Source: Leucosporidium creatinivorum
Taxonomy: Eukaryota > Basidiomycota > Microbotryomycetes > Leucosporidiales > Leucosporidiaceae
DNA length: 64,000 bases
Reading direction: 5' to 3'
NCBI GenBank assembly: GCA_001600635.1
Contig: BCKL01000004.1
Location: 310,001-374,000 of the forward strand
Position numbers and translations under genes: made by a program. The notes under the pieces were generated by a model, which did not search any database, was not told the DNA's origin, and saw only the letters and a program-made list of their open reading frames with translations. How positions within the stretch are numbered: position 1 is the stretch's first letter; every line of letters starts with the position of its first letter. Below are positions 3,874 to 64,000 of this stretch, piece after piece.

Positions 3874-4320
3874 GCTGCAGCCGTTTGGCTTTAGAGCGTG
3901 AGAAGCGATCACTGATTCTTCTACCAACCTGCAGATTAGCGTTGGGCTCGACAGGTACTTTCCATGGCTTGTTCGAACAGTGCTCGGCGCTGACTCGCCT
4001 CGGCGGCCACAGATTGAAGAGGCTCTGCAGACTGACGAGGCGGATGGAGTGGGCCGCAGGGAAGCAATGTAACCTAAACTCATCTGTGAGCTGCTTTCAG
4101 ACTCCGACGAGGCGCGCAGAGGGAGAGAGCTTCCAAGCAGATCGTTCGCCGAGCAGCAATGGCAAGTTCGAAGCACGAGCGCGGCGCCGATGCCTCCTTC
4201 TCAGTCGAGCAAACCCGCGGAAAAGGATCTACTCTAGTAAGTGGAGCTTACAGGTTTGCGAGGTCGCCCTCACCTCATCCTGTCGAGACGGCCGAGCACC
4301 TTCATCGCCGAGGCCGGCCT
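3874..4320. other. intergenic region, nothing recognised
   Basis: Between the F-box gene and the TOP1-derived fragment. A long uninterrupted frame runs 4159-4863, but it crosses the TOP1 fragment and the first exon of the next gene in a different frame, so I treat it as chance openness in GC-rich DNA. Confidence 0.4.
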
Positions 4321-4530
4321 TCCTTTCTCGCCGAACAGGACCCTCGAATCACCTTCGCGTGGTGCAAGCGCTTCGATGACCCGCCCAACAAGCTCTTCAG
4401 CAAGACCCTTCTCGAAAAGCAAGTCGTACAGCAGAACGACCAGACGGTGGCGATCTTCTCGGCCGTCGTCGAGCCGAACGCCGAGCTGACTTGCGCCTCT
4501 TTTGCTCTCTCTCCTCTTCGCCTCTTTGCC
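4321..4530 (+). pseudogene. duplicated fragment of TOP1 (exon plus flanking introns)
   Basis: This stretch repeats about 650-860 of the TOP1 gene in the same orientation: the end of the first intron (ctcgccgaacag), the whole 80-nt exon (4339-4418, encoding DPRITFAWCKRFDDPPNKLF...) and roughly 110 nt of the following intron, including gccgaacgccgagctgactt. Retained intron sequence shows a DNA-level duplication, not a retrocopy. Coding changes relative to the parent include K-to-R and V-to-D substitutions. The donor GTGAGT of the parent reads GCAAGT here. No upstream Top1 core, catalytic tyrosine or terminal exon accompanies it, so it cannot encode a topoisomerase. It may be transcribed as part of the leader of the next gene, which starts 220 bp downstream. 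Confidence 0.88.
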
Positions 4531-4750
4531 CTTGGTTCCCCTCTCCCCTCACGCTTGTCTCTCCTCCTTGCTCAGCGCTCATCCTCGAACCGCTCCTGCA
4601 CCTCGACGCCCCGCTGCATGCTCACCGCTCCGCTGCCGTCTCTCGCCTCCTTTGCCAACGCCCGTATGCCGAGGACTTGGCCTTTATACGAGGTTTCGTC
4701 GGTTTCGGCTCTTGCATTCTTCAAGTTCCCTTGTCACTGCTTGACTCGAC

Positions 4751-6519
4751 ATGTTTATCATCACCTCGATTTCGATTCGCGAGCAATGTACCGAGGTCAA
4801 GGAGGCATCGAAGGAGCTCTGGACGTTCGCAAGGACTCATCATTGGCGGCGCACCATGCGTAACAGTCTGAAGAGAAAGTATTGGGGTGAGCCGAGTCCA
4901 GGGACATGCTGCAGGCTACGCTGACTCTCGCTGCAGTGTACTGGGCGCTGCTCGGCGCGTTGATTGCCATCATGATCCTCGCCGCACTGTACCGCGAGAC
5001 CATCATTCATTGGCTGCAGCCGCACAAGGAGGATATAGTCGCAACAAGTTGGGCATGGATCGTCCCTATTGCGATCCTCGTAGTGCTCTCTATTCCTCCG
5101 CTAGTGAGTCTCGGCGCCGAAGTTGATCGCCGAAGCCACCTTTGGGCTCCGGAACGGCGCTGATGAGACTCTCGCGACGTACAGGGGGGTCATGAGATTA
5201 TTCTCCTACTTGTGAGCTCTTTTGGCAACAGTCAGCCCCCCCTCCACGATGGAACGAGCCGACTCGGCGAAAGTCTCGAGGCCATCGGGGGGTCAAAAAG
5301 GGCCCGAGCTCATCTTTACATTCTCTCTGGTCATTAACCGAACAGATCGGCGTATTCTGGGGGCCTTGGGTTGGCTTAGGCATCGCTACAGCGGGCACCT
5401 TCATCGGCGAGCTACTTTGCTTCTTTGTCTTCCGCTACTACTTCACCGAGAAGGCTCAGCAGTGAGTCGCGACTTTCAGCTTTATCGGGTCTTCTTCTCG
5501 CCCCTCTCCTCCCCCCTCAGCTTCCTTCCTTGGACTCTGAAGCTGACCGTCGGCGCTCTTTTTCGGTGCTGGCACTCGCAGAATCGAGGAGAGCAGTATC
5601 GCGTACGCTTGTATCGCTCGGCTGATGGGACAAGGAAGCCTGATCATGGTCACCCTGATTCGATACTCAGCGATTCCAGGTGAGCAGGCCTTTGCTCCGA
5701 GCTTCTCCTTCGGCGCTCACTCTTTCCCCTCCCCCCCCGCCTGTACCAGGCCACGTCGTCACCGCTCTTCAGTCAACGGTTGGGATGCATATAGTAGTGT
5801 ACATGGCAGCGGTGCTCCTCTCCATGGCCAAGCCCTTCGCCTTCGTCTACCTCGGCGTGGCCGTCGGCCGAGTTCACGGCGATGCAACAACTGAGCAGCT
5901 ACAAGTGCGTCTCGTTCATACAGAAGAGTACTTCGCTGACCATTCGCACTCGCAGGAGCAATCCCTCATCAACTGGGCCGTAACCCTCGGCGTCGCGCTC
6001 GCTACCATTATCTCCCTCTTCGTGACCTACCTCCGCGCCCGCCGACTCTACCCCATCATCCTCGCCGAGTCAATCTCTCGCCGCGCCGAGAAAGGAGGAA
6101 CAGCCGACTTCGAGGTCCTCAACATCAGCCTCGCCGAAGCGACGATGGACGGCGTCGACGCGCAAGGACACTTTGGCAGCCTCTCGGATGAGGAGGAAGA
6201 GAGGAAGTGGAGGGTGAGGGGAGAGCAGGAGCTCCAGTACCAGCCGATGGAGGGGAGGAGCTGGCAAGATGGGCCGGCGGTGCAGGAGGATGACGAGGAG
6301 CGGAGGAGGGCGAGGAGGAACGCCGAGAAGGAGAGGGAGGCCGAGGAAGAGATTCGGAGGATTGAGACGGTCGAGCTGACGCAGAGGAGCGATGAGAAGA
6401 GGTACTGGGGGTCTAGTGACGAGCGGGAGGAAGAGGAAGCCGCGCCGAGGTACGATCAGCTCTCGCTGCTCAGTCGGAAGGGGGAGAGGCGGAGCAAAGC
6501 GAGCGATGGGAGTTGGTAG
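4751..6519 (+). CDS. TVP38/TMEM64 (VTT/SNARE-associated) family membrane protein
   Basis: Seven exons: 4751-4886, 4937-5103, 5185-5211, 5346-5461, 5582-5679, 5750-5904, 5956-6519; 420 residues. The start ATG follows an in-frame TGA 9 bp upstream. Hydrophobic segments include VYWALLGALIAIMILAAL, WAWIVPIAILVVLSI, VGLGIATAGTFIGELL, GMHIVVYMAAVLLSM and NWAVTLGVALATIISLFV. The family core is visible: GVFWGPWVGLGI, then ARLMGQGSLIMVTLIRYSAIPGH and KPFAFVYLGVAVG. These match fungal Tvp38, a Golgi membrane protein; the VTT group in general includes lipid scramblase-like proteins. Exon 3 is only 27 nt. The C-terminal ~130 residues form a charged Glu/Arg-rich tail, longer than the conserved core requires and probably cytosolic. 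The family is confident; function here is inferred from homology. Confidence 0.88.
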
Positions 6520-19471: not shown

Positions 19472-20021
19472 ATGAGTGCCAACAATGGACTCGATCTCAG
19501 CTGCTCAGGCTGCCAAAGCGTGCGTCGATGCGTGATGCCACCCTTGTACCGCATTTCACTGACACTTTCAATCATCTTGCCCAGCTCATCGAGCAAATCA
19601 GCTCACTGAGAGCCGAGCTCGCGATCGCCGAGAAGGAGCTGCTCACGCGTAACGAGCGGATTCACTCGCTTGAGGCTATGCAGGAAGCTCATGTTCTGCA
19701 CATGGACGAGGCGGAAAAGAAGCTTTTAGACCGGATAGACAAGGTGAAAGGTAAATCGACTCGGGGAAGCGACGCTGAGCTTTTGAGAGTTCTGGGCGAG
19801 CTGGCAGTCTTTCGGCGCTCCACAGAACGTACCAGCAGGTCTCCCCCTTTCTACGATAACGCCAGCTCGGCGCATGTCTCCCAGCCCAAACAAAACGGGA
19901 AGCCAGCCGCTCCTGAGGAGAGCGCCGAGCCGACGTGAGCTCGATGGAGGCAATACGCTGCCCATGGGACGGCTGAGCTGACTCACTTCTTTCTAGAGAC
20001 TCGTGGAGCGCATGGGTCTGA
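19472..20021 (+). CDS. mini-gene derived from the kinesin tail exons (115 residues)
   Basis: Four exons (19472-19519, 19585-19750, 19826-19934, 19997-20021) splice into one open frame. Exon 1 encodes a novel start (MSANNGLDLSCSGCQS). Exons 2 and 3 are diverged copies of kinesin exons 15 and 16: LIEQISSLRAELAIAEKELL and RNERIHSLEAM against kinesin [20 protein letters not shown] and [11 protein letters not shown], then ...ESAEPT against ...EAAEPS. Intron phases are identical (0, then 1, then 2), so this is a DNA-level duplication, not a retrocopy. Exon 2 is 166 nt against 187 in kinesin; exon 3 is 109 against 94. The final exon resembles kinesin's last exon in another frame (SSFFAQRQP) but is read out of that frame and stops early. 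The product would be a short coiled coil without a motor. It may be a pseudogene or an expressed partner of kinesin; sequence alone does not decide. Confidence 0.6.
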
Positions 20022-20220
20022 GCTCTTTCTTCGCTCAGCGCCAACCTTAGTGCTTCGGCGATCAGGATGGTTGGGCCTTCACAAAAGGTTGAAAGCGGAT
20101 TGCGAGAACTAGAGAAGTGTTACAGGTGGGGTGGATCTTGTCTATTGACAAGTTTCCCAAGAGCTGACCCCTTCCGGTCTCTCCCACCTTTCTTCGCTTC
20201 CTTCATTCACTTTTATACAG

Positions 20221-20600
20221 GTCGAGACATGACTGCAGCCATCGGCTCGTATCCCTGGGACGTCGCTCACGTCAAGATCAACGAGAATTGGGCTTCCACC
20301 TTCCGTTCGGCTCTCAATGGGCCCAAGAAGTACTCGGTCGAGCAGCTGCTGTGCCTCGACCTGCTGGCCAGCGAGGGAATGCAGTCTACGCTCAGGACCT
20401 TCGATTGGATGTTCGAGGAGCCCGGGCTTAAGAGGGAGATGCTGGCTCATCTCAAGGTGAGTAGCATTGTCTGCCAAGCTCGCTCATCGCTGACCTACTT
20501 TGGCAACTCACTCGCTGTCGCCCTCGCAGGTCGTGTCTCCGCTGGTTCAGGAAGCCAAGTGAGCTTCCGGCTTTCGGTTCGGTATCGGCGCTGGACGCGG
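20221..20600 (+). pseudogene. 3' remnant of a MYND-family gene
   Basis: Positions 20221-20456 form an exon (GRDMTAAIGSYPWDVAHVKI, NENWASTFRSALNGP and LCLDLLASEGM blocks) clearly homologous to exon 4 of the MYND gene at 34285-35643 (HDMGMQLEGLLWDLPTLKIN, WPATFKAAVNGP, NVLDLLASEGM). It has the same entry and exit phases, preceded by a tatacag acceptor and followed by a gtgagt donor. A second exon-like piece from 20530 (VVSAGSG) parallels the start of that gene's last exon. No MYND finger, 19-nt micro-exon or long third exon precedes it. The frame happens to stay open from 20067 to 20960 without splicing, so a short product cannot be excluded. I read it as a truncated copy. Confidence 0.65.
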
Positions 20601-31102: not shown

Positions 31103-32267
31103 CTACTCGTCTCGCTCCCAGTATGGAAGCCCCTGCAGAAGGGAAACGGTCAGCGCGGTGGACGCCGGCCGAGCGCCGAGATCGTTGGGCGCCGATCCCA
31201 GACCCTACAGCTCCTCGCTCGTCGAGAGAACCTGCTCACCAGTTCCCTGACACGCCTCTCTTCCTGTTGGCCCTCGCTCTCGATGAAGTCGAGCCTAACG
31301 AGGCCGTGAGTCGGCAGTCCGGGATCGCTGGAGAGCGAGTTCTTGAGCGTCCGCTCCCATTGGGGGTTGAGCTTGGTGGACTCGAGGGGCGCATAGATCC
31401 AGGTGTCTTTGTTGTGGACGCTGACATCGGTGAAAGCTAGTGAGTGGAAGGGCGCGGCGGAAGGGACGAAGAGGGAAGGCCGAAGGAGACGGTGGGAGAA
31501 GCGGGAGAGCGCAAGAGTCAGCGAGCCAGTAGCCGGAGCGGAATCTAAAACTTACTGCAGCTTGCCTGCTTGCCTTTGGGGTCGGTAGCGATGAAGCACG
31601 TCGTCGCCGACAAGGTCTCTCCCCTCCGGTCTTCCAGCTGTCGCCGAAGTCCGCCTGTGAGATCCTCCTCCTGGGGCATCCCTTGCGCGAGAGCCTGCTT
31701 GGACAGATGCTTTCGTCGATTCATCTCCTCCTCGATGCTGAGAACGTCGGCCTGAAGGAGTTTGAAGCTCTGACGAAGCGACGGCGCCTCTGCGTTGTGT
31801 TGGAAACGGAGAGCGAGGTAGTGCGTCCGATTCAGAGGGACACGGCCTAGTTCGAAAGCGGAGCGCCATGCAATCATGGCCACTTCCGCTGCCACAGACT
31901 TGGCGTACTTCTCGAAGGTGTCGGAGAAGGGAGCGGCGTAGGGCTCGGCGATGGCGCGAGCTTCTAGGTTTGAGGACTGCAGAGCCCATGCTCGGCAGTC
32001 TGATTTGTGCGAAGGATAGGCTGCGACCTATTGTGTAAAGCCGGGTCAGGCTGTGGTCGTGTGCCCTCTGAATCCCTTCGGCGCACTTGGCACTCCCTCG
32101 AGCAGCTGCGAAAAAAGGCGAAGGTCAGCTCGCGATTCGGCCGAGGCAAGCAATGAGCAGATCACTCACTACACAGCCTGAGAGCACCGAGAGCAGATTT
32201 TCGCCGCTCCTTCACTTCCGCACTGAGAACACGCGACGTCCGCTCCAGGAATGCGAGGCGCGGGCAT
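31103..32267 (-). CDS. MYND zinc-finger protein, paralogue 1
   Basis: Exons in transcript order: 32170-32267, 32087-32105, 31556-32027, 31240-31436, 31103-31132; 271 residues. The finger sits at the extreme N-terminus: CSQC, CSRC, YCSREC and HKSDC give the eight MYND ligands (C-x2-C, C-x2-C, C-x3-C, H-x3-C). The third pair is encoded in a 19-nt exon. MYND fingers are protein-interaction modules, found with SET domains or in ankyrin and other scaffolds. No SET motif follows here. The remainder (a helical middle with HYLALRFQHNAEAPSLRQSF and a C-terminal LNPQWERTLKNSL block) matches no domain I know but is shared with the two neighbouring paralogues. The last exon encodes only GLPYWERDE. Confidence 0.8.
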
Positions 32268-32848
32268 TGCTGGATGAGGGCGTAGATGGAGAGGGCGTGT
32301 AGCGAGAGTGTTCGAATGTGTGTAGTCTGCTACACTGCGCTGTGTCGAGACGAGGAAGACGAGTTGCAAGCAGCGAGAAGCGGGAGAAAGAAAGCAGCGC
32401 TCGCGGTTCGAGCTCCAACTCCGCGGTGCTGTAGGGCAGTGGGTAGTGGAGTTGAGGTGTACAGAGAGTGAAAGGGCTCGATTAAGCTACCTCTGCTCTC
32501 TTGAACTCTGTAGAGCTGTTCTCGGTCGCTCGCCTCCTTTTCGAAAGTCGCCGAGCACTTCGCTCTTCGTCCTCCGGCTCTCGCGCTTGCCGTGGACGTT
32601 TCAAAAGTATCGAAGACCTATGTAGAGCTCTCTCTAGCTCTCTGGCTTCGAGACTCAGGTATCAAGGCAGCAGCGTTCATTCCCTAAGCTCGGCGCCGAG
32701 CTCCAGCGTTCCCCCTAAGCAGCGAGCCTGCAGCTCGTCAGCGTCTGTGCAGGTTCACTAATAGAATTCTGGAGGTGAAAGAAGGGCAAGACCCACTCAC
32801 CTTCTTCCTTACTTCCTTGCGCTCGAGACCCTCCTTCGGCTACGTCCT
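32268..32848. other. spacer between MYND paralogues 1 and 2
   Basis: About 580 bp containing the 5' region of paralogue 1 and the 3' end of paralogue 2. No gene recognised. CT/AG-rich short repeats (agctctctctagctctctgg near 32630) are present. Confidence 0.35.
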
Positions 32849-33876
32849 TCAAGCCTGAGCGCTTCGGAGGGAGATCCCGCACATTCGAAGCAAGCGTTCC
32901 CTACCGAGCCTATGCACTTCCTTCTCTCCCACAACCGCAGCGTGATCTGTTTGCGAATGCGGGTAGTCGAGGGGGTGGACCTCGGCGAAGGAGTCGCGCA
33001 AAGTAGCGAGCCAGTCCTCGTTGAGGGGGATCTCCTCGATGGGAATATAATAGTGGCTCTTGAGTATCCATCGACGGCCGACTGAAGGAATCGCAGTGCT
33101 CAGCGAACTTCCCGGCAAGACCGAGAAGGGAGAACTTGAAGGGCAGCTCACCGAGATTGTAGTAGGCCATCTTGGTCTTCGTGTAGACCTTGATCAGTGA
33201 GACACCAAACAGGACTTCTCCCTCTTCTCCTCCTGCTGAGAACCGACCTGCCTCGTTGGCCATCTGCGACCGAAGGTTGGCGCAGAACTCTTCGTCGCCA
33301 TTGTTGAGGGCCGGGTCGGAGAAGGTGGCGGCGAACGATCGCACCTCTCCCTTGCGCAGCTCAAATCGAGCACGGAGGGGAGAAGCACGCTCCTTGTACT
33401 CGAGCTCCAGGTACAGGTAATGAGTGAGAGCGAGTGAATTGGAACGACCGAGGCGCAGGGCCGAGCGAAGGGCGAGCCAGGAGATCTTGCGGTCGATGTC
33501 GCCTCTCAGCCACTGGTGCAGGTCGTCTTGCATCATCGTCAAATGTGGCTTGGAGAGTCCCAAGCTCTCGGCGCGGTCGGCTGAGGTCTTGCAGGCGGCG
33601 CAGGCGAGGCGGTGCTTCTTCCAGTCAAGCTTCTGTGGTATAAGAGCACGTCAATTGTCTGCAGCACAGATCGGAGTCTTCTAATCTTACTTGACAGGTC
33701 GAAGAGCAGCTGTGAGAGATGGTACGGGTCAGCTTGCTATCTTCTTGCTTGTCCGAGGTCGTCGCCGAGCAAGCTCACTAGCCCGAGCCGCGACAGCGAG
33801 AGCATAGCTTGACGCCTCCTTCTACTTTGGTATCTCCCTTCCCACACCAGCTGCAGGTAAGCTCGTATCCTGTCAT
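32849..33876 (-). CDS. MYND zinc-finger protein, paralogue 2
   Basis: Exons in transcript order: 33779-33876, 33691-33709, 33152-33632, 32849-33081; 276 residues. The N-terminal finger is CSWC, CSRC, YCSSTC, then WKKHRLAC. Exon 1 is 98 nt and exon 2 is 19 nt, exactly as in paralogue 1, and the junction phases are identical (2, 0, 1). The middle part (WLALRSALRLGRSNSLALTH, YLYLELEY, RARFELRKGEV) aligns with the other paralogues. It is followed by a C-terminal exon with IPIEEIPLNEDWLATLRDSF. No enzymatic motif is visible. The tandem position and conserved exon structure point to local duplication. The function is unknown. Confidence 0.82.
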
Positions 33877-34284
33877 GGGGTCGAGCGTCGCGCAAGGGAA
33901 GGAAGTCGATCCGAGCGGTGAAGGGTGCGGGAGCAGGCGCTAGCAGTTGGGCAGTGGATCAGTCTCTGTGTTTGTCTATAGGTACTAGGAAGAGAGAGCT
34001 CACCGCGAGCGATTTGAGACCCCGCTTGCAAACGGCGTGCTCAACGAGTGAAGACGAGTTCCGAAGCTGTAACGACCCGGGCGATGGTTTGAGTAGACGT
34101 GGATAGCTTGGAGATTTTTACTCTGCTCCCTCGAGTAGTCCCGTCGAGACGAAGAGGTGGCGAAGCGAGCGACGAGGTGGTGGGAAAAGGACAAGGGGCT
34201 TTGATTCGAGTCGCTCGCTCATAGCTCGGGGGTCGTAAACTGTTGGAGGAGGCTGTGAGATGAGTGGACTATCCCCTCTTGTAG
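33877..34284. other. spacer between MYND paralogues 2 and 3
   Basis: About 400 bp, presumably the promoter of paralogue 2 and the 3' region of paralogue 3; no further gene recognised. Confidence 0.35.
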
Positions 34285-35643
34285 TCAGACTGTATTGTCT
34301 CCTTCCCTGCAATCAGCTTGCGAGAGCGAATCGCGAGTAGACACAACGCCGAGCCCGGTCGACTTTCGCCTCCTCGCCATAGTACAGCGCACTCCCTCCC
34401 AGTCCACGCCAACATCGCATATATTAAACGCTCTTCCCTCCCGAGCCAGTGTGCTCCAAGCTGATACGGTCTGCGAGAAGCGAGCCGAAGGAAAGTCAGC
34501 TTTTCGCCGAGCTCGGCGGTCAAGGCTAGAGCGAGAGCACTACACACCTCAAGATGACCCAGCATGCGCCGCATATCACCGGGTGGCCAGATGCCAGAGA
34601 ACGAATCCATCACCCTCCTTGCGCCGACCATGCCTTCGCTGGCGAGCAGGTCGAGCACGTTGAGCTGCTGTGGCTGCCTGAAGTGCTGGGGTCCATTGAC
34701 AGCTGCCTTGAACGTCGCTGGCCATTGAGAATTGATCTTGAGAGTCGGTAGGTCCCAGAGGAGCCCTTCGAGTTGCATTCCCATGTCGTGGCCTGTGCGA
34801 AAGCGGGTGGTCAGCCATCGCCGAGGCGGGCGACTAGTCACGTAGGTCCACCGCTTGGGTTCAGCAGCAGCCAGAGAAGGATAGAGATCAACTCACTGAC
34901 AATCCGAGTCACGTCTCGAGTAGGATCTCTCCCATACAGGACCATGAAGCTCATAGCCCTGCCCTTCCGCTGAGGCATCGTCGCCGGCTTGCGCTGGTCA
35001 AAAGCGTTCTTTGAGGGCATGGGACCAGAGTCCTCCTTGATAAACGTTTCCCGAGTAATCACGTCTCCTCGAACGAACTGCATCCTTTGGCGCACAGTTG
35101 TCGCCTCGCTGTCCCAATCGAAGAAGAGCCTCACGACCGAGGAATGATTCCTTTGCGTCGTTTTGCCTAGGTGGAGGGCCGAGCGCATGACTAGGGCGCA
35201 TATCTCCCACGTCACTTCCTCCGCCATGCTTTGAAGGTCTCGAACGAGCGCCGGATCACGAGGAGAGCTGAGTGCTCGCTCTTCCAGCTGTCGCAGCGGT
35301 CGCTGCAGCTGGTTACAGTGGACACGGTGTCCCTTCCAATGTGTGCGCTATATTCAATGTTCAGTCAGGCGAGCTCGACGGTCAGCAGTCCCCTCGGCCG
35401 AAGCAGAAGCGAAAGGGAAGCTCACTTGACATTCGGCGTTACAACTGGGCGATGGGGAGGGACGTTAGGACGGCAGCAATAGCCTTGCGAGGTAATAGAT
35501 ACTCACTAGTATGCCTGGTTGCACCGACTACACCTCAACAGCCTCTCCTCCGGGGTCGTTCGACACAGCCCTTTCAAGCAACCCGCGCATCCTGGTCCCC
35601 GCCGCTCGCTCTCGTCCTGGTAGTAGCGGAAGTCGGTGGACAT
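34285..35643 (-). CDS. MYND zinc-finger protein, paralogue 3
   Basis: Exons in transcript order: 35507-35643, 35426-35444, 34897-35347, 34548-34792, 34285-34470; 345 residues. Finger: CAGC, CSRC, YCNAEC, then HWKGHRVHC, with the third ligand pair again in a 19-nt exon. The middle exon has EEVTWEICALVMRSALHLGK and a region resembling the other paralogues (RQRMQFVRGDVITRETF). Exon 4 (MQLEGLLWDLPTLKIN, FKAAVNGP, LNVLDLLASEGM) is the segment also found as a remnant at 20221-20456. The last exon was chosen because it continues in phase from a GTGTGT donor/CAG acceptor pair; another frame there also stays open, so the final 62 residues are less sure. Confidence 0.8.
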
Positions 35644-51008: not shown

Positions 51009-53602
51009 CTAATCGCTAGTAGTACTAACACGCTGCACCACAGGCGATGCAGGGGACTCCTTGCCCTCGCTTGGGCTCTTCTCGTCGGTGCTGATACGAC
51101 CAACGAGCGCTCCAGGCTCCTTAGAGGCCTCTTCGAGAGCGGCTATAGGGAAGGCTGGGTCAGCGTGTAGAGAAAGAGACCAGTAGCACTGCGACTCACC
51201 TTGACGAGGCCCGACGAACCAGTTCTTCGCCCACAAGAACCAAGACCCGAATGTGCCGAGGGCAACAATACCGCACGCTACGACAGTATAGTTCAGGGTT
51301 TGAGAGTCGACTGGGTTGGCCGTCGGTAGGCAGAACGCGATGGTGATGAAGGTGACCCATGCCTGTTGCGTTTGGCAAAGAAAGGGTGAGCGCCGAGCAG
51401 CAAGCTTCGAAGGCTCCGACGGGCAGAGCTTCGACCAGGCTCGGAGCAGCAAAGCTTGCGCCGCTCCGCCTCCGTGAATGGAAGAGCAATGGAAGAGTAA
51501 AGGAGGGCAAAGAAGTGTCATACTCACGATTGCGACGTAGGCTACAGGCAGACTGGCTCGACCGAGGTTGAAGGGTCCACGCATGGCCAAGAACCGAGAA
51601 TGATCGAAGGCAAGGATAGCGATGGGAATGGCGTAGCTGATGTAAAGACCTATGGTAGCGATGCTAGTAGCTGCAGCGTAGGCCACGGAGGATCCAAGGG
51701 CGGGGAGAGCGAGGATGAAGGCGAGCGTGCAGGCGAGCCAGACTGAAAGAGGCTGGGTCAGCGAGGGGGGAGCTACACGAGTACCGCAAGCCGTGTGACT
51801 CACCGGTTCGGATCGGTGAAGACCACTTCTTGTCGACATGGTCGAAGAAGCGAGGTAGAGCGCCATCACCTGCCAAGAAGGATTGTGCCGAGGTCAGCGC
51901 GAAGTCCAGAACGCGCGTCTCGAGTCGATCACGAGCGAGCGAAGGGTCAAGAGAGACTCACGAGAGAAAGCGTACATCATCCGACTGTTGCTGGTGATCG
52001 AGAACAATCCGCAATGCCAGATGCAGAGGCAAACGAAAGTCATGGCCACGGTCGCTCCCGTCTTTCCCTGCAGGTCGGTAAGAAGAGGTCAGAGCGTAGA
52101 CAAGCTGAAGGAGGTAGCTCGACTCACGAAGACGTCCACAAAGATCTGCAAGACGGGGTTGCCGAGCTCGGTGTTGACGGTCGCGTCGAAATCTTGAATC
52201 GAGAAGAGGTAGGAGAGGAGGAGGAACAAGCCGAAGAGGGAGGAGGCGCCGACAGCAGTGATGACTCCAATCGGGGCACTCTCTGCCGCGTTGTGCGTCT
52301 CCTCGCTCATGTGGGCTCTGGAGAGGGTTCGGCGATGGGTCAGCGAGGGGCCGTGAGAGCTCGAGGTATCGACTCACGAGGCATCGAAGCCGGTGATGGT
52401 GAACTGAGCGAGTAGCACACCGACTACTGCCACATATGCAGGTGAAGCTCGTACAGACCATCCTCCCGTGCCGTCGTAGAAGTGAGCGAAGACCTCCTTC
52501 GCCGTTCGGTGAGTCGGCGCCTTGGCAAGGAGGGCGATGGCGAGGCTTCCGACGCCGAGGGACTGTAGGGCAATACTAGTACGATTGAGGAAGCCCAACG
52601 TCTTGATGCCAAACGTGTTGATGATCCCATGCGAGACGAGGAGAGCGGCGTAGACTCCAATCTGCCGAGGAGCGGTCGTTTCGAAGCCGTAAAGGCCTGC
52701 TGTGGTGCAGATGAGTCCTGCTAGCCCGAAACTGATGCCGCATGTCACTGCCACCTGGCCTAGGAAGTTGGCCCAGCCTGTAGTCCATGCTGCAAAGGCC
52801 GAGTGCTGAGGTTTGGCGAGCAGGGCGGCCCAGTGGTAAGGCTGCGAAGGGCAGAAGGGCGGCGGTCAGCTCCCAGCTCTCGGACGAGTACTACTAGAGT
52901 AGTACATGGTGGTAGAAGTAAAGAGCAACTCACTCCTCCAGATGTAGGGATAGCGGAGACGATCTCGGCCATCGAGAAGGCGACGAACCTGCGAACGCCG
53001 AGCTGGTCAGCGGGGGCAGCTCGAAGGTGGGCAGCCCATCGCACGGTGGCAATGGACTCAGACTGCGTCCCATAGTAATCGACTCGGCGCGGCAGACCTG
53101 AAGAGAGCTACTCACATCGTAAAGAATGAGACGACGATCCATCCCACCGACATCACTCCTGGGCCTCCAGTGACGAGTCCGAAGCTGAAGAGTGTTGTGA
53201 TACCAGTGACGACTGTTGTGGTGAGTTGTGCAGCAGCGACAATGGGTCAGCGATCGTCTCTCCAAGTTGGCGCCGAGCAGGAAGCCTCGACGGCGCAAGG
53301 ACAGCCCTCAGCGACACTTTCGCCCCCTGCGGTTGAGCTGTAACGTACCAGAGATGATGGAGAATGACACTCCAAAGGATTCCAGCAGGCTCCATCCACG
53401 CTTCAACTCTGCGAAAAGCGGGGAAACTCAAGATAAGCTGGCTGCTCGCTGCCTGCTGTTCTGCACCTCGTTACGCTCGTTCGGTTGCTGCGAGCTGTCA
53501 CCCACCTTGATTATAACCTAGCGCTGCCAGACGGGCCGCGTCTGCTGCCTCTCCGTGGTGATGGTGACCTTCTGGGTCGACGTCAATGGCTCCCGCTGGC
53601 AT
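51009..53602 (-). CDS. APC-superfamily amino-acid / GABA-type permease
   Basis: Eleven exons in transcript order: 53506-53602, 53349-53408, 53116-53212, 52934-52988, 52378-52841, 52128-52317, 51962-52067, 51804-51869, 51528-51742, 51200-51362, 51009-51142; 548 residues. A His-rich cytosolic N-terminus leads to ELKRGWSLLESFGVSFSII, the usual opening of fungal GABA/choline permeases (Uga4/Hnm1 group). It is followed by TTLFSFGLVTGGPGVMSVGW, AEIVSAIPTSGGPYHWAALL, the signature FTITGFDASAHMSEETHNAA, and further helices (LACTLAFILALPALGSS, SIATIGLYISYAIPIAILAF). About 12 membrane segments are visible. The substrate is probably GABA, other amino acids or polyamines; it cannot be fixed from sequence. 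Part of exons 5 and 6 with their intron is duplicated at 62166-62556. Confidence 0.9.
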
Positions 53603-61970: not shown

Positions 61971-62165
61971 GCGACGAGTCGGCTGCAGTATAGGATAGAA
62001 GCAAAGGGTGTGGAGGATGATGGAGTGTCTGTGAAATGCAGAGACGAAGAATGTCCTGCAGTAACTCGTGTCGAAGTCTTTGGCGAGCGAGAGACGATTC
62101 GGCCGCCGAGAGTCAGCGTCAAGCAAACAGGCTGCAGCGACTTCGACTCGGATGAGCAGAGAGAA
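61971..62165. other. OSCP 3' flank
   Basis: About 195 bp between the OSCP stop and the permease-derived duplication; nothing recognised. Confidence 0.35.
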
Positions 62166-62556
62166 GTGATGGCTCCGATCGGGGCACTCTCAGCCGCGTT
62201 GTGTGTTTTCTCGCTCATATGGGCTCTGGAGAGGGTTCGGCGATGGGTCAGCGAGGGGCCGTGAGAGCTCGAGGTATCGACTCACGAGGCATCGAAGCCG
62301 GTGATGGTGAACTGAGCGAGTAGCACACCGACTACTGCCACATATGCAGGTGAAGCTCGTACAGACCATCCTCCCGTGCCGTCGTAGAAGTGAGCGAAGA
62401 CCTCCTTCGCCGTTCGGTGAGTCGGCGCCTTGGCAAGGAGGGCGATGGCGAGGCTTCCGACGCCGAGGGACTGCAGAGCGATACTAGTGCGATTGAGAAA
62501 GCCCAACGTCTTGATATCCCGAAGGTGTTGATGATCCCATGCGAGACGAGGAGGGC
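62166..62556 (-). pseudogene. duplicated fragment of the APC permease (parts of exons 5-6 with intron)
   Basis: This segment repeats 52257-52647 of the permease gene in the same orientation. Over about 250 bp (roughly 62220-62475), including the whole 60-nt intron, I see no difference from the parent; both edges carry scattered substitutions (for example gaaaca-type changes in the MSEETHNAAESAP coding part, read MSEKTHNAAESAP here). The rest of the permease gene is absent on both sides, so no transporter can be made. The sharp interior identity against diverged edges suggests either a very recent duplication with edge decay or gene conversion from the parent 10 kb away. Confidence 0.9.
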
Positions 62557-62995
62557 GCCTGACCTTCGAGAGTCATCGCCGAGCAGCGCTTTGCGTCGCT
62601 GTGCGCGAGGTTGGGCTTTCGTACAGCAAGCCAAAGCTGTCTGTGAAATGCACATTGGCTCTGCAGAGTTGTGGATACCTCCACTAACGATGTGCAGACG
62701 GCTCGCGCTCCTCGGCGACTCGGAGACAGCAAACCAAGCGAGAAACCTGTGCAAGAGCAAGTACGAGCTATGGGATGCTGTTCGAGCTCTTTCTTTGCTG
62801 TTCCACTACAGCTCCACAAGGTGTTTGACTTCGGACCCCGCTGACTTGGACTTGCCCCTCCGCGAGGAGCGAAGGACGGGCGAAGTTCGAATCGCCTCTT
62901 GCTCTCCAACTACAACTTGCTTCGCTTGACTCTCGCCTCCGACCGCTTCGGGATAGCACAGGACCGCTAGTCTAGGTCACTCGTATACGCCTACA
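62557..62995. other. upstream region of MYND paralogue 4
   Basis: About 440 bp with no recognised gene; the permease similarity ends sharply near 62556. Confidence 0.35.
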
Positions 62996-64000
62996 ATGTC
63001 CGCCGCGGCGACGAAGCAAGCACTGGCGACTGACAGCGAGCGTCTCATCCGCTGCTTAGGATGCGACGTCAAGATTGGCCGGGCACGCCTCACAAGCTAC
63101 TCACGTGCGGAGGATGTTTGGCTTTCTATTAGTGAGCAAGACTGCTTCGGATGTCGGAGCGAAAGCGGAGCTGACTTCTTGTCTCGCTTGCAGCTGCTCG
63201 GCGCCGTGCCAGGTGAGTGGCTCTCTCAGCTACATACAGAAGAGCGACTGAACCTATGGGATTCTCAGAAGCAACACTGGCCACAGCACCGAGCCGTCTG
63301 CAAGAGCCAACGCCGACAGCAGCTCGACCGAGAGGAGGGCGCCCTCATCGAGAAGGAAGCGACGATACGTCACCAGGATAAGGCCGACTATCGTCGACTG
63401 ATCGCAGCCGAGGCGGCGTTCATCGGCTTTCGCAGCGGATTGCTCGCAGGTAGACCCGAGACCCTCAACCTCACCCATCTCCTTCGCACCGACCACATCT
63501 ACCAACCCCAGGGCAAGACCTTGAGGGATAGGTTCAAATTCGTGAGAGCTGAGGTCGTGTCGTTCAAGCAGATGAGGAGGGAGCACCCCGGCAATGATGC
63601 GCTGTTTGACAAGGTGTTCCCGCCGACGAAGGGTTTCGGACCTCACCACGTCGGTTTCCTCGTCGCCATTCATGCCCTTCGCATTGTTGGAACTACCTCG
63701 AGTCCCTTTTCGTTGAACGAGCTACAGCGTGAGCTGTCCTTGACGGCTCCCCGGCGCGACAAGCTAACTCGGCGTTTCTGCGCTCTCCTTTCCTCTTCTT
63801 CTCCTCCGCACAGTGGCGGTCACCTCTCTCGGCGACAACATTCCGGGCATCCCTCCCGCCGCTCAGCGTCCTCTCAACCCTCACTGGCAGCAGACGATGG
63901 CGCGAGTGCTCGAAGCGCCTCAAGCCGAGATGGTCGCCGTGCTCCTAGAGGATGTAGCTGATACCGAGGGGGCAAAGAGAGCTGAGCAGCTTAGGCTTGG
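62996..64000 (+). CDS. MYND zinc-finger protein, paralogue 4 (runs off the right edge; frame conflict in exon 1)
   Basis: Exons: about 62996-63131, 63194-63212 (19 nt), 63269-63728, 63814 to beyond 64000. The finger reads CGGC, YYCSAPC, then HWPQHRAVC, and the 19-nt exon carries the third ligand pair as in the three tandem paralogues. The helical middle (AAEAAFIGFRSGLLAGRPET, LRDRFKFVRAEVVSFKQMRR) and the C-terminal exon (LNPHWQQTMARVLEAPQAEM) match the family. In exon 1 the first ligand pair (RCLGCDVKI) is in the frame of ATG 62996. The second pair (LLTCGGCLAFYY) lies in another frame, which opens at ATG 63061 and is the one that joins the micro-exon. So either one base differs from the functional gene, or the product starts at 63061 and lacks the first pair. 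Confidence 0.72.

Follow-up and report, generated by a model that had tools for sequence, protein, structure and literature searches.

In a 64,000-base window of the basidiomycete Leucosporidium creatinivorum (contig BCKL01000004.1, positions 310,001–374,000 of the forward strand) we find a family of genes, here called A to D, in which the MYND zinc finger is split over three exons, one of them only 19 nucleotides long. The best joint explanation, and on balance a probable one, is an old tandem family, apparently fungal, that inherited two introns lying 19 nucleotides apart within the finger, includes the intervening micro-exon constitutively, and uses the finger as an adaptor. On this explanation exon 1 would give Cys1 to Cys4, the micro-exon Cys5, Cys6 and a glutamine, and exon 3 His7, Cys8 and an unclassified domain of predicted helix and then strands; this domain would reach past an intron in phase 1 into a C-terminal block. 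Intron definition would be the mode of splicing and, given good signals in short introns, the micro-exon would most likely always be included. Once complete, the finger most likely recognizes a short proline-rich motif of a partner protein, and the rest of the protein would offer a second contact, as befits an adaptor. The layout, the phases, the splice signals and the homology of the copies can be read off the DNA; actual splicing, zinc binding and partner binding we infer.

The MYND fingers of genes A, B and C

Three adjacent minus-strand genes had been described in a first-pass annotation of the window as encoding an N-terminal MYND finger, and the family search bears this out. Gene A (31103–32267; five exons, 271 residues) has its finger at residues 13–50, gene B (32849–33876; four exons, 276 residues) at residues 8–50, and gene C (34285–35643; five exons, 345 residues) at residues 19–63; all three are open models. 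Scored against zf-MYND (PF01753), for which the Pfam gathering cut-off is 22.7 bits, they reach 37.9 bits (E-value 1.8e-9), 36.6 bits (4.7e-9) and 41.1 bits (1.8e-10), respectively. The eight zinc ligands are complete and in MYND order in each, with the spacing C-x2-C-x(8, 13, 15)-C-x2-C-x4-Y-C-x3-C-x7-H-x3-C in A, B and C. The ligands are shared out in the same way in all three: Cys1–4 on exon 1, Cys5, Cys6 and the glutamine on the micro-exon, and His7/Cys8 on exon 3. The guanine-plus-cytosine (GC) content is highest at the third codon position in all three genes (in gene A, 0.618/0.485/0.706 by codon position).

Exon 1 is indeed of equal length, 98 nucleotides, in A and B, as the annotation had remarked. 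But the equality is probably accidental, because 8 residues separate the first Cys pair from the second in A but 13 do so in B, and a 98-nucleotide exon as a constraint shared by the two genes was rejected on this ground.

A micro-exon of 19 nucleotides

Can so short an exon be placed with any confidence? To locate it we used the pattern AG-N-TGY-N9-TGY-CAR-GT on both strands of the 64,000 bases. It matched four times, at 32087–32105 (gene A, minus strand), 33691–33709 (gene B, minus), 35426–35444 (gene C, minus) and 63194–63212 (gene D, plus), against 0.00 expected (the mean of 100 shuffles). These are exactly the four exons proposed in the first-pass annotation, and allowing one mismatch still returned just those sites (0.42 expected). 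A direct pattern for part of an unsplit finger had no match. Joined to the TA that ends exon 1, the micro-exons would encode YCSRECQ in A, YCSSTCQ in B and YCNAECQ in C; that of D gives YCSAPCQ in the finger frame. The ligand codons vary between TGC and TGT, and the Tyr and Gln codons vary in their third base, while the peptide YCxxxCQ is kept. As read, each is an internal coding exon well within the limit of about 30 nucleotides used to recognize micro-exon genes, placed between two introns, with GT/AG borders in four of four. In A, B and C it is entered in phase 2, through the split Tyr codon, and left in phase 0. The same phases had been claimed for D. From the first ATG of that gene (62996), however, exon 1 is 136 nucleotides long, which gives the micro-exon an entry phase of 1.

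A second scan was blind to the peptide. It sought exons of 3–60 nucleotides between introns of 45–120 nucleotides, with donor, acceptor and branch-like site, and because its rules were set after the introns described here had been seen, it counts as support and as no independent proof. Under strict rules it returned 12 candidates, three of which, the micro-exons of A to C, were 19 nucleotides long; every other length that occurred was represented once. Among 60 first-order Markov controls the mean total was 8.30 and the mean number of 19-nucleotide candidates 0.10, and none of the 60 had at least three at any one length. The micro-exon of D, missed by the strict scan, was found when the branch rule was relaxed: of 21 candidates, four were 19 nucleotides long, at exactly the four sites given above. 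Three candidates at some length were then seen in 13 of the 60 controls, four in none.

Could the 19-nucleotide exon nevertheless be an illusion, a chance AG...GT pair inside a longer intron? The exons are predicted from sequence, which gives the suggestion what force it has. Set against it are the four sites where 0.00 were expected and the agreement of both peptide-blind scans, strict and relaxed; moreover, leaving the exon out costs the fingers of A, B and C two ligands and breaks the reading frame. We consider an illusion highly improbable. The same result upholds, on paper, the proposal that the finger depends on its micro-exon. MYND domains are described as a pair of interlocking zinc folds that recognize PXLXP motifs, and they are reported to become disordered when zinc coordination is lost (PMC3136521). 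The micro-exon should therefore be needed for a folded finger.

Flanking introns and the consequences of mis-splicing

The introns that flank the micro-exon are 56–78 nucleotides long, those of all genes modelled 56–119 nucleotides. In seven of the eight flanking introns a branch-like site has its A 17–20 nucleotides from the acceptor; by the pattern used, the second intron of D has no such site. Introns so short, with branch-like sites in seven of eight, favour intron definition and constitutive inclusion of the micro-exon. A third intron, on which the earlier description was silent, follows the exon-3 region; its phase is 1 in A to C and, in the finger frame, in D. The intron positions have been kept despite a protein identity of only 22–26% between the exon-3 copies (all six pairs).

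What would follow if splicing failed? On paper, skipping of the micro-exon leaves 32 residues in A and 32 in B, with the stop at the junction, and 90 residues in C. If intron 1 is retained, translation meets TAG at the junction after 32 (A), 32 (B) and 45 (C) residues, and the finger frame of D meets TAG there too. Retention of intron 2 leaves 79 (A), 60 (B) and 75 (C) residues.

Such early stops would suit a regulated switch, in which retention of intron 1 or skipping of the micro-exon, under some conditions, would let splicing turn the whole family of finger proteins on or off. There is a precedent of a kind in Trichoderma, where a 20-nucleotide micro-exon of Xlr2, carrying two zinc-cluster Cys codons, is reported to be glucose-regulated (PMC11121469). 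We also compared the intron interiors (donor and last 25 nucleotides removed) between copies, using single-base shuffles that preserve composition only. The interiors of intron 1 proved to resemble one another slightly more than shuffles do (4 of 200 reach the score), and this too may be counted in favour of a switch. Yet the TAG is automatic, because exon 1 ends in TA, the start of the split Tyr codon, and the donor begins with GT. Nor do the signals of intron 1 look impaired: its donor reads GTGAGT or GTGAGC, and all four copies have a well-placed branch-like site. The interiors of intron 2 are not conserved (72 of 200 shuffles score at least as high), and those of intron 3 are likewise no more alike than shuffled sequences (63 of 200). 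We regard the regulated switch as possible but unsupported, and as distinctly unlikely. That the zinc finger of the whole family is gated by one conserved micro-exon, each mis-splicing route considered above ending in an early stop, so that all members could be under the control of a single splicing regulator, we consider less likely again. To judge by its signals, the micro-exon is most likely an ordinary, always-spliced piece of gene structure rather than a new switch.

Gene D

Does gene D (62996–64000, plus strand), which runs off the end of the window, encode a fourth MYND finger? The first-pass annotation held that it does. As read, it does not: the first Cys pair (CLGC) and the second (CGGC) lie in different frames, and the reading from the first ATG ends after 95 codons. 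Two more ATGs occur in exon 1, at 63061 and 63114, of which only the former is in the finger frame, and a start there excludes the first Cys pair. A search for an upstream exon that would supply the first pair in frame found no CxxC in plus-strand 62501–63000 by the pattern used. Gene D as read thus falls outside zf-MYND, and the part of it submitted to Pfam on its own, exons 3 and 4, has no match there. The disruption may be a true one or an error of assembly.

A 408-nucleotide repeat, 94% identical between its copies, lies at 52242–52647 and 62150–62557, the second copy about 440 bases before gene D. The first copy (52376–52649, minus strand) has a weak match to AA_permease_2 (8.8e-5; 22 bits, under the cut-off of 27); the second (62285–62560, minus strand) has none at E-values up to 1.

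The post-MYND domain, the C-terminal block and remnant E

Beyond His7 and Cys8, exon 3 carries a domain shared by all four genes, as seen by alignment and by a family hidden Markov model. The exon spans 31556–32027 in A, 33152–33632 in B and 34897–35347 in C (all minus strand), and 63269–63728 in D (plus strand). At E-values up to 1 the model picks out just these four copies from all six frames of the window, and nine positions are invariant among the four. A profile of exon 4, the C-terminal block, finds A to D and, in its right frame at 1.3e-16, a further relative at 20221–20457 (plus strand), which shares 44% identity with C in the block that aligns. The remnant of the family that had been suspected at 20221–20600 is thus real, as a relative of exon 4; we call it E. 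A wrong frame of E had entered the alignment behind this profile, and the open reading frame of that frame came up as well (5e-11), besides four rows below threshold (E-values 0.19 to 0.78); the 44% comes from the alignment in the right frame.

The absence of a recognized domain after the finger, already suspected, was sustained in the libraries searched: Pfam for A, B, C, the exon 3+4 part of D, and E; NCBIfam for A, B and C; and PDB sequences for C. No family other than MYND passed a Pfam or NCBIfam cut-off in the three complete genes A, B and C, and neither the D part nor remnant E had a Pfam match at E-values up to 10. Gene C had 37 matches among PDB sequences at E-values up to 1, all covering the finger except one chance-level tropomyosin row.

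Two AlphaFold2 models of the exon-3 part, built from the same four sequences, give some idea of the fold. The one led by D is of moderate quality (predicted local distance difference test, pLDDT, 70.0; predicted template modelling score, pTM, 0.55), the one led by A weaker (56.7 and 0.49). Both predict a long helix or helices, a strand, a short helix, a strand, a helix, a further short helix and a strand. The region had been called helical: helices are indeed predicted, but in these moderate or weak models strands follow them. A Foldseek search with the D-led model gave 0 of 123 matches at an E-value of 0.001 or better (among the matches listed, 50 of the 123), a null that says little because the model is only moderate. 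Against viral contigs the exon-3 alignment gave 24 pattern matches, none of them confirmed.

As read, D has a broken frame, and E is a remnant next to a kinesin-tail-like fragment. Are most copies, then, relics in decay, in which the micro-exon persists only as a trace of an intron pair in the ancestor? The other three genes speak against this: their frames stay open for 271 (A), 276 (B) and 345 (C) residues, their GC content peaks at the third codon position, and their ligand sets are complete. Decay of most of the family is unlikely.

Remnant E itself looks chimeric (19472–20457, plus strand). It combines, in this order, a short CxxC-bearing open stretch, MSANNGLDLSCSGCQS, a kinesin-tail-like peptide and the exon-4 relative. 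The peptide, coiled-coil-like, is similar to the tail of a reading in the kinesin region immediately upstream, with 40% identity over 67 columns (tblastn, filters off, 2-kb search space, 2e-11).

Age and evolution of the family

The copies, compared with one another within the 64-kb window, have no mutual blastn match at 1e-6; either the duplications are old, therefore, or the genes evolve fast. With one disrupted copy (as read) and one remnant, birth and death fits better than recent expansion. The description of the family as expanding is accordingly not supported, given exon-3 identities of 22–26%, the lack of blastn matches, the disruption of D and the state of E. We conclude that the micro-exon layout is real and old in this MYND family.

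Published counts cover all MYND genes and are at most compatible with a lineage-specific family of this kind. They are reported as 24.7 ± 15.1 over Rhodotorula strains, with 7 in R. sphaerocarpa (PMC10662464), and as 26 in R. glutinis, 11 in Sporobolomyces roseus, 7 in Microbotryum and a mean of 41 in Agaricomycetes (PMC4469406). Orthogroups with HIT and MYND-type fingers are said to have undergone extreme expansion in green algae (PMC8226300), so that MYND expansion is no fungal peculiarity. In the literature searched we found no report of MYND zinc finger expansion in fungal genomes.

Assessment and significance

Several points weigh against an old family with a constitutively included micro-exon and an adaptor finger. 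The donor that follows the micro-exon of A is weak (GTGCGC). Introns 1, 2 and 3, taken whole with their signals, are each more alike between copies than shuffles (0 of 200 reach the score), a likeness that their shared signals would produce; the interior of intron 1, as noted, remains marginally so. The splice junctions of the micro-exons are predicted ones, the scan rules were chosen with these introns already in view, and gene D is disrupted as read. Lastly, the adaptor-like character and the partner binding are argued by analogy with MYND fingers elsewhere. These points are allowed for in calling the explanation probable and no more.

Gene finders reportedly tend to miss such short exons (PMC11121469 on Xlr2; PMC12940212 on micro-exons generally). 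MYND genes of this kind could therefore be misannotated and their number misjudged, and the conserved 19-nucleotide exon is a simple DNA signature by which they may be recovered. The domain attached to the finger has no family in the libraries searched. Were the splicing regulated after all, a family-wide zinc-finger switch would make a useful model for fungal micro-exons.

Setting of the window

The GC content of the window is 57.5–61.6% in 4-kb blocks. A kinesin motor, a WD40 gene and an eIF3c match also occur in it; transfer RNA and Rfam scans of the window returned none. At 4090–4863 (plus strand) an open reading frame has a topoisomerase C-terminal match (Topo_C_assoc, 3.4e-8), with a partial copy upstream at 629–858, in which two pieces of 40 residues show 80% and 72.5% identity.

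Comparison with known systems

How does this arrangement compare with others? A, B and C share the ligand order C-x2-C ... C-x2-C-x4-Y-C-x3-C-x7-H-x3-C with zf-MYND (PF01753) at large; they differ in that the finger is split over three exons and no other domain reaches the Pfam cut-off. Among MYND proteins the SMYD methyltransferases come to mind, since SMYD2 is the best PDB sequence match of gene C (2.4e-6), though over the finger only. In SMYD proteins a SET domain is split by MYND; for A, B and C no SET match is listed at E-values up to 10 (filters drop most above 0.1), and the three genes fall outside that class.

A close parallel in exon structure is Xlr2 of Trichoderma, whose micro-exon likewise has a length not divisible by three and encodes two zinc-ligand cysteines, and whose omission likewise destroys the domain (PMC11121469). 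But Xlr2 is a single ascomycete Zn2Cys6 transcription factor whose regulation was seen in RNA, whereas the MYND family described here is a reading of genomic DNA. The P450 genes of Phanerochaete chrysosporium resemble our family in being a basidiomycete multigene family with small introns and very short exons, some of them inside conserved motifs (PMC1184071, PMC12940212). They encode enzymes, however, and their micro-exons occupy varied places, where here there is one fixed site per finger copy in the window. An exon of a single nucleotide is on record in Fusarium (PMC12940212).

Fungal micro-exons within conserved motifs are already established (PMC11121469, PMC1184071, PMC12940212). On micro-exons in MYND genes we found no fungal report in the literature searched, in which one schistosome-genome paper shares both terms. 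By that measure the novelty is modest: one micro-exon, whose position is the same in every copy of the finger, in a diverged MYND family that carries an unclassified domain.

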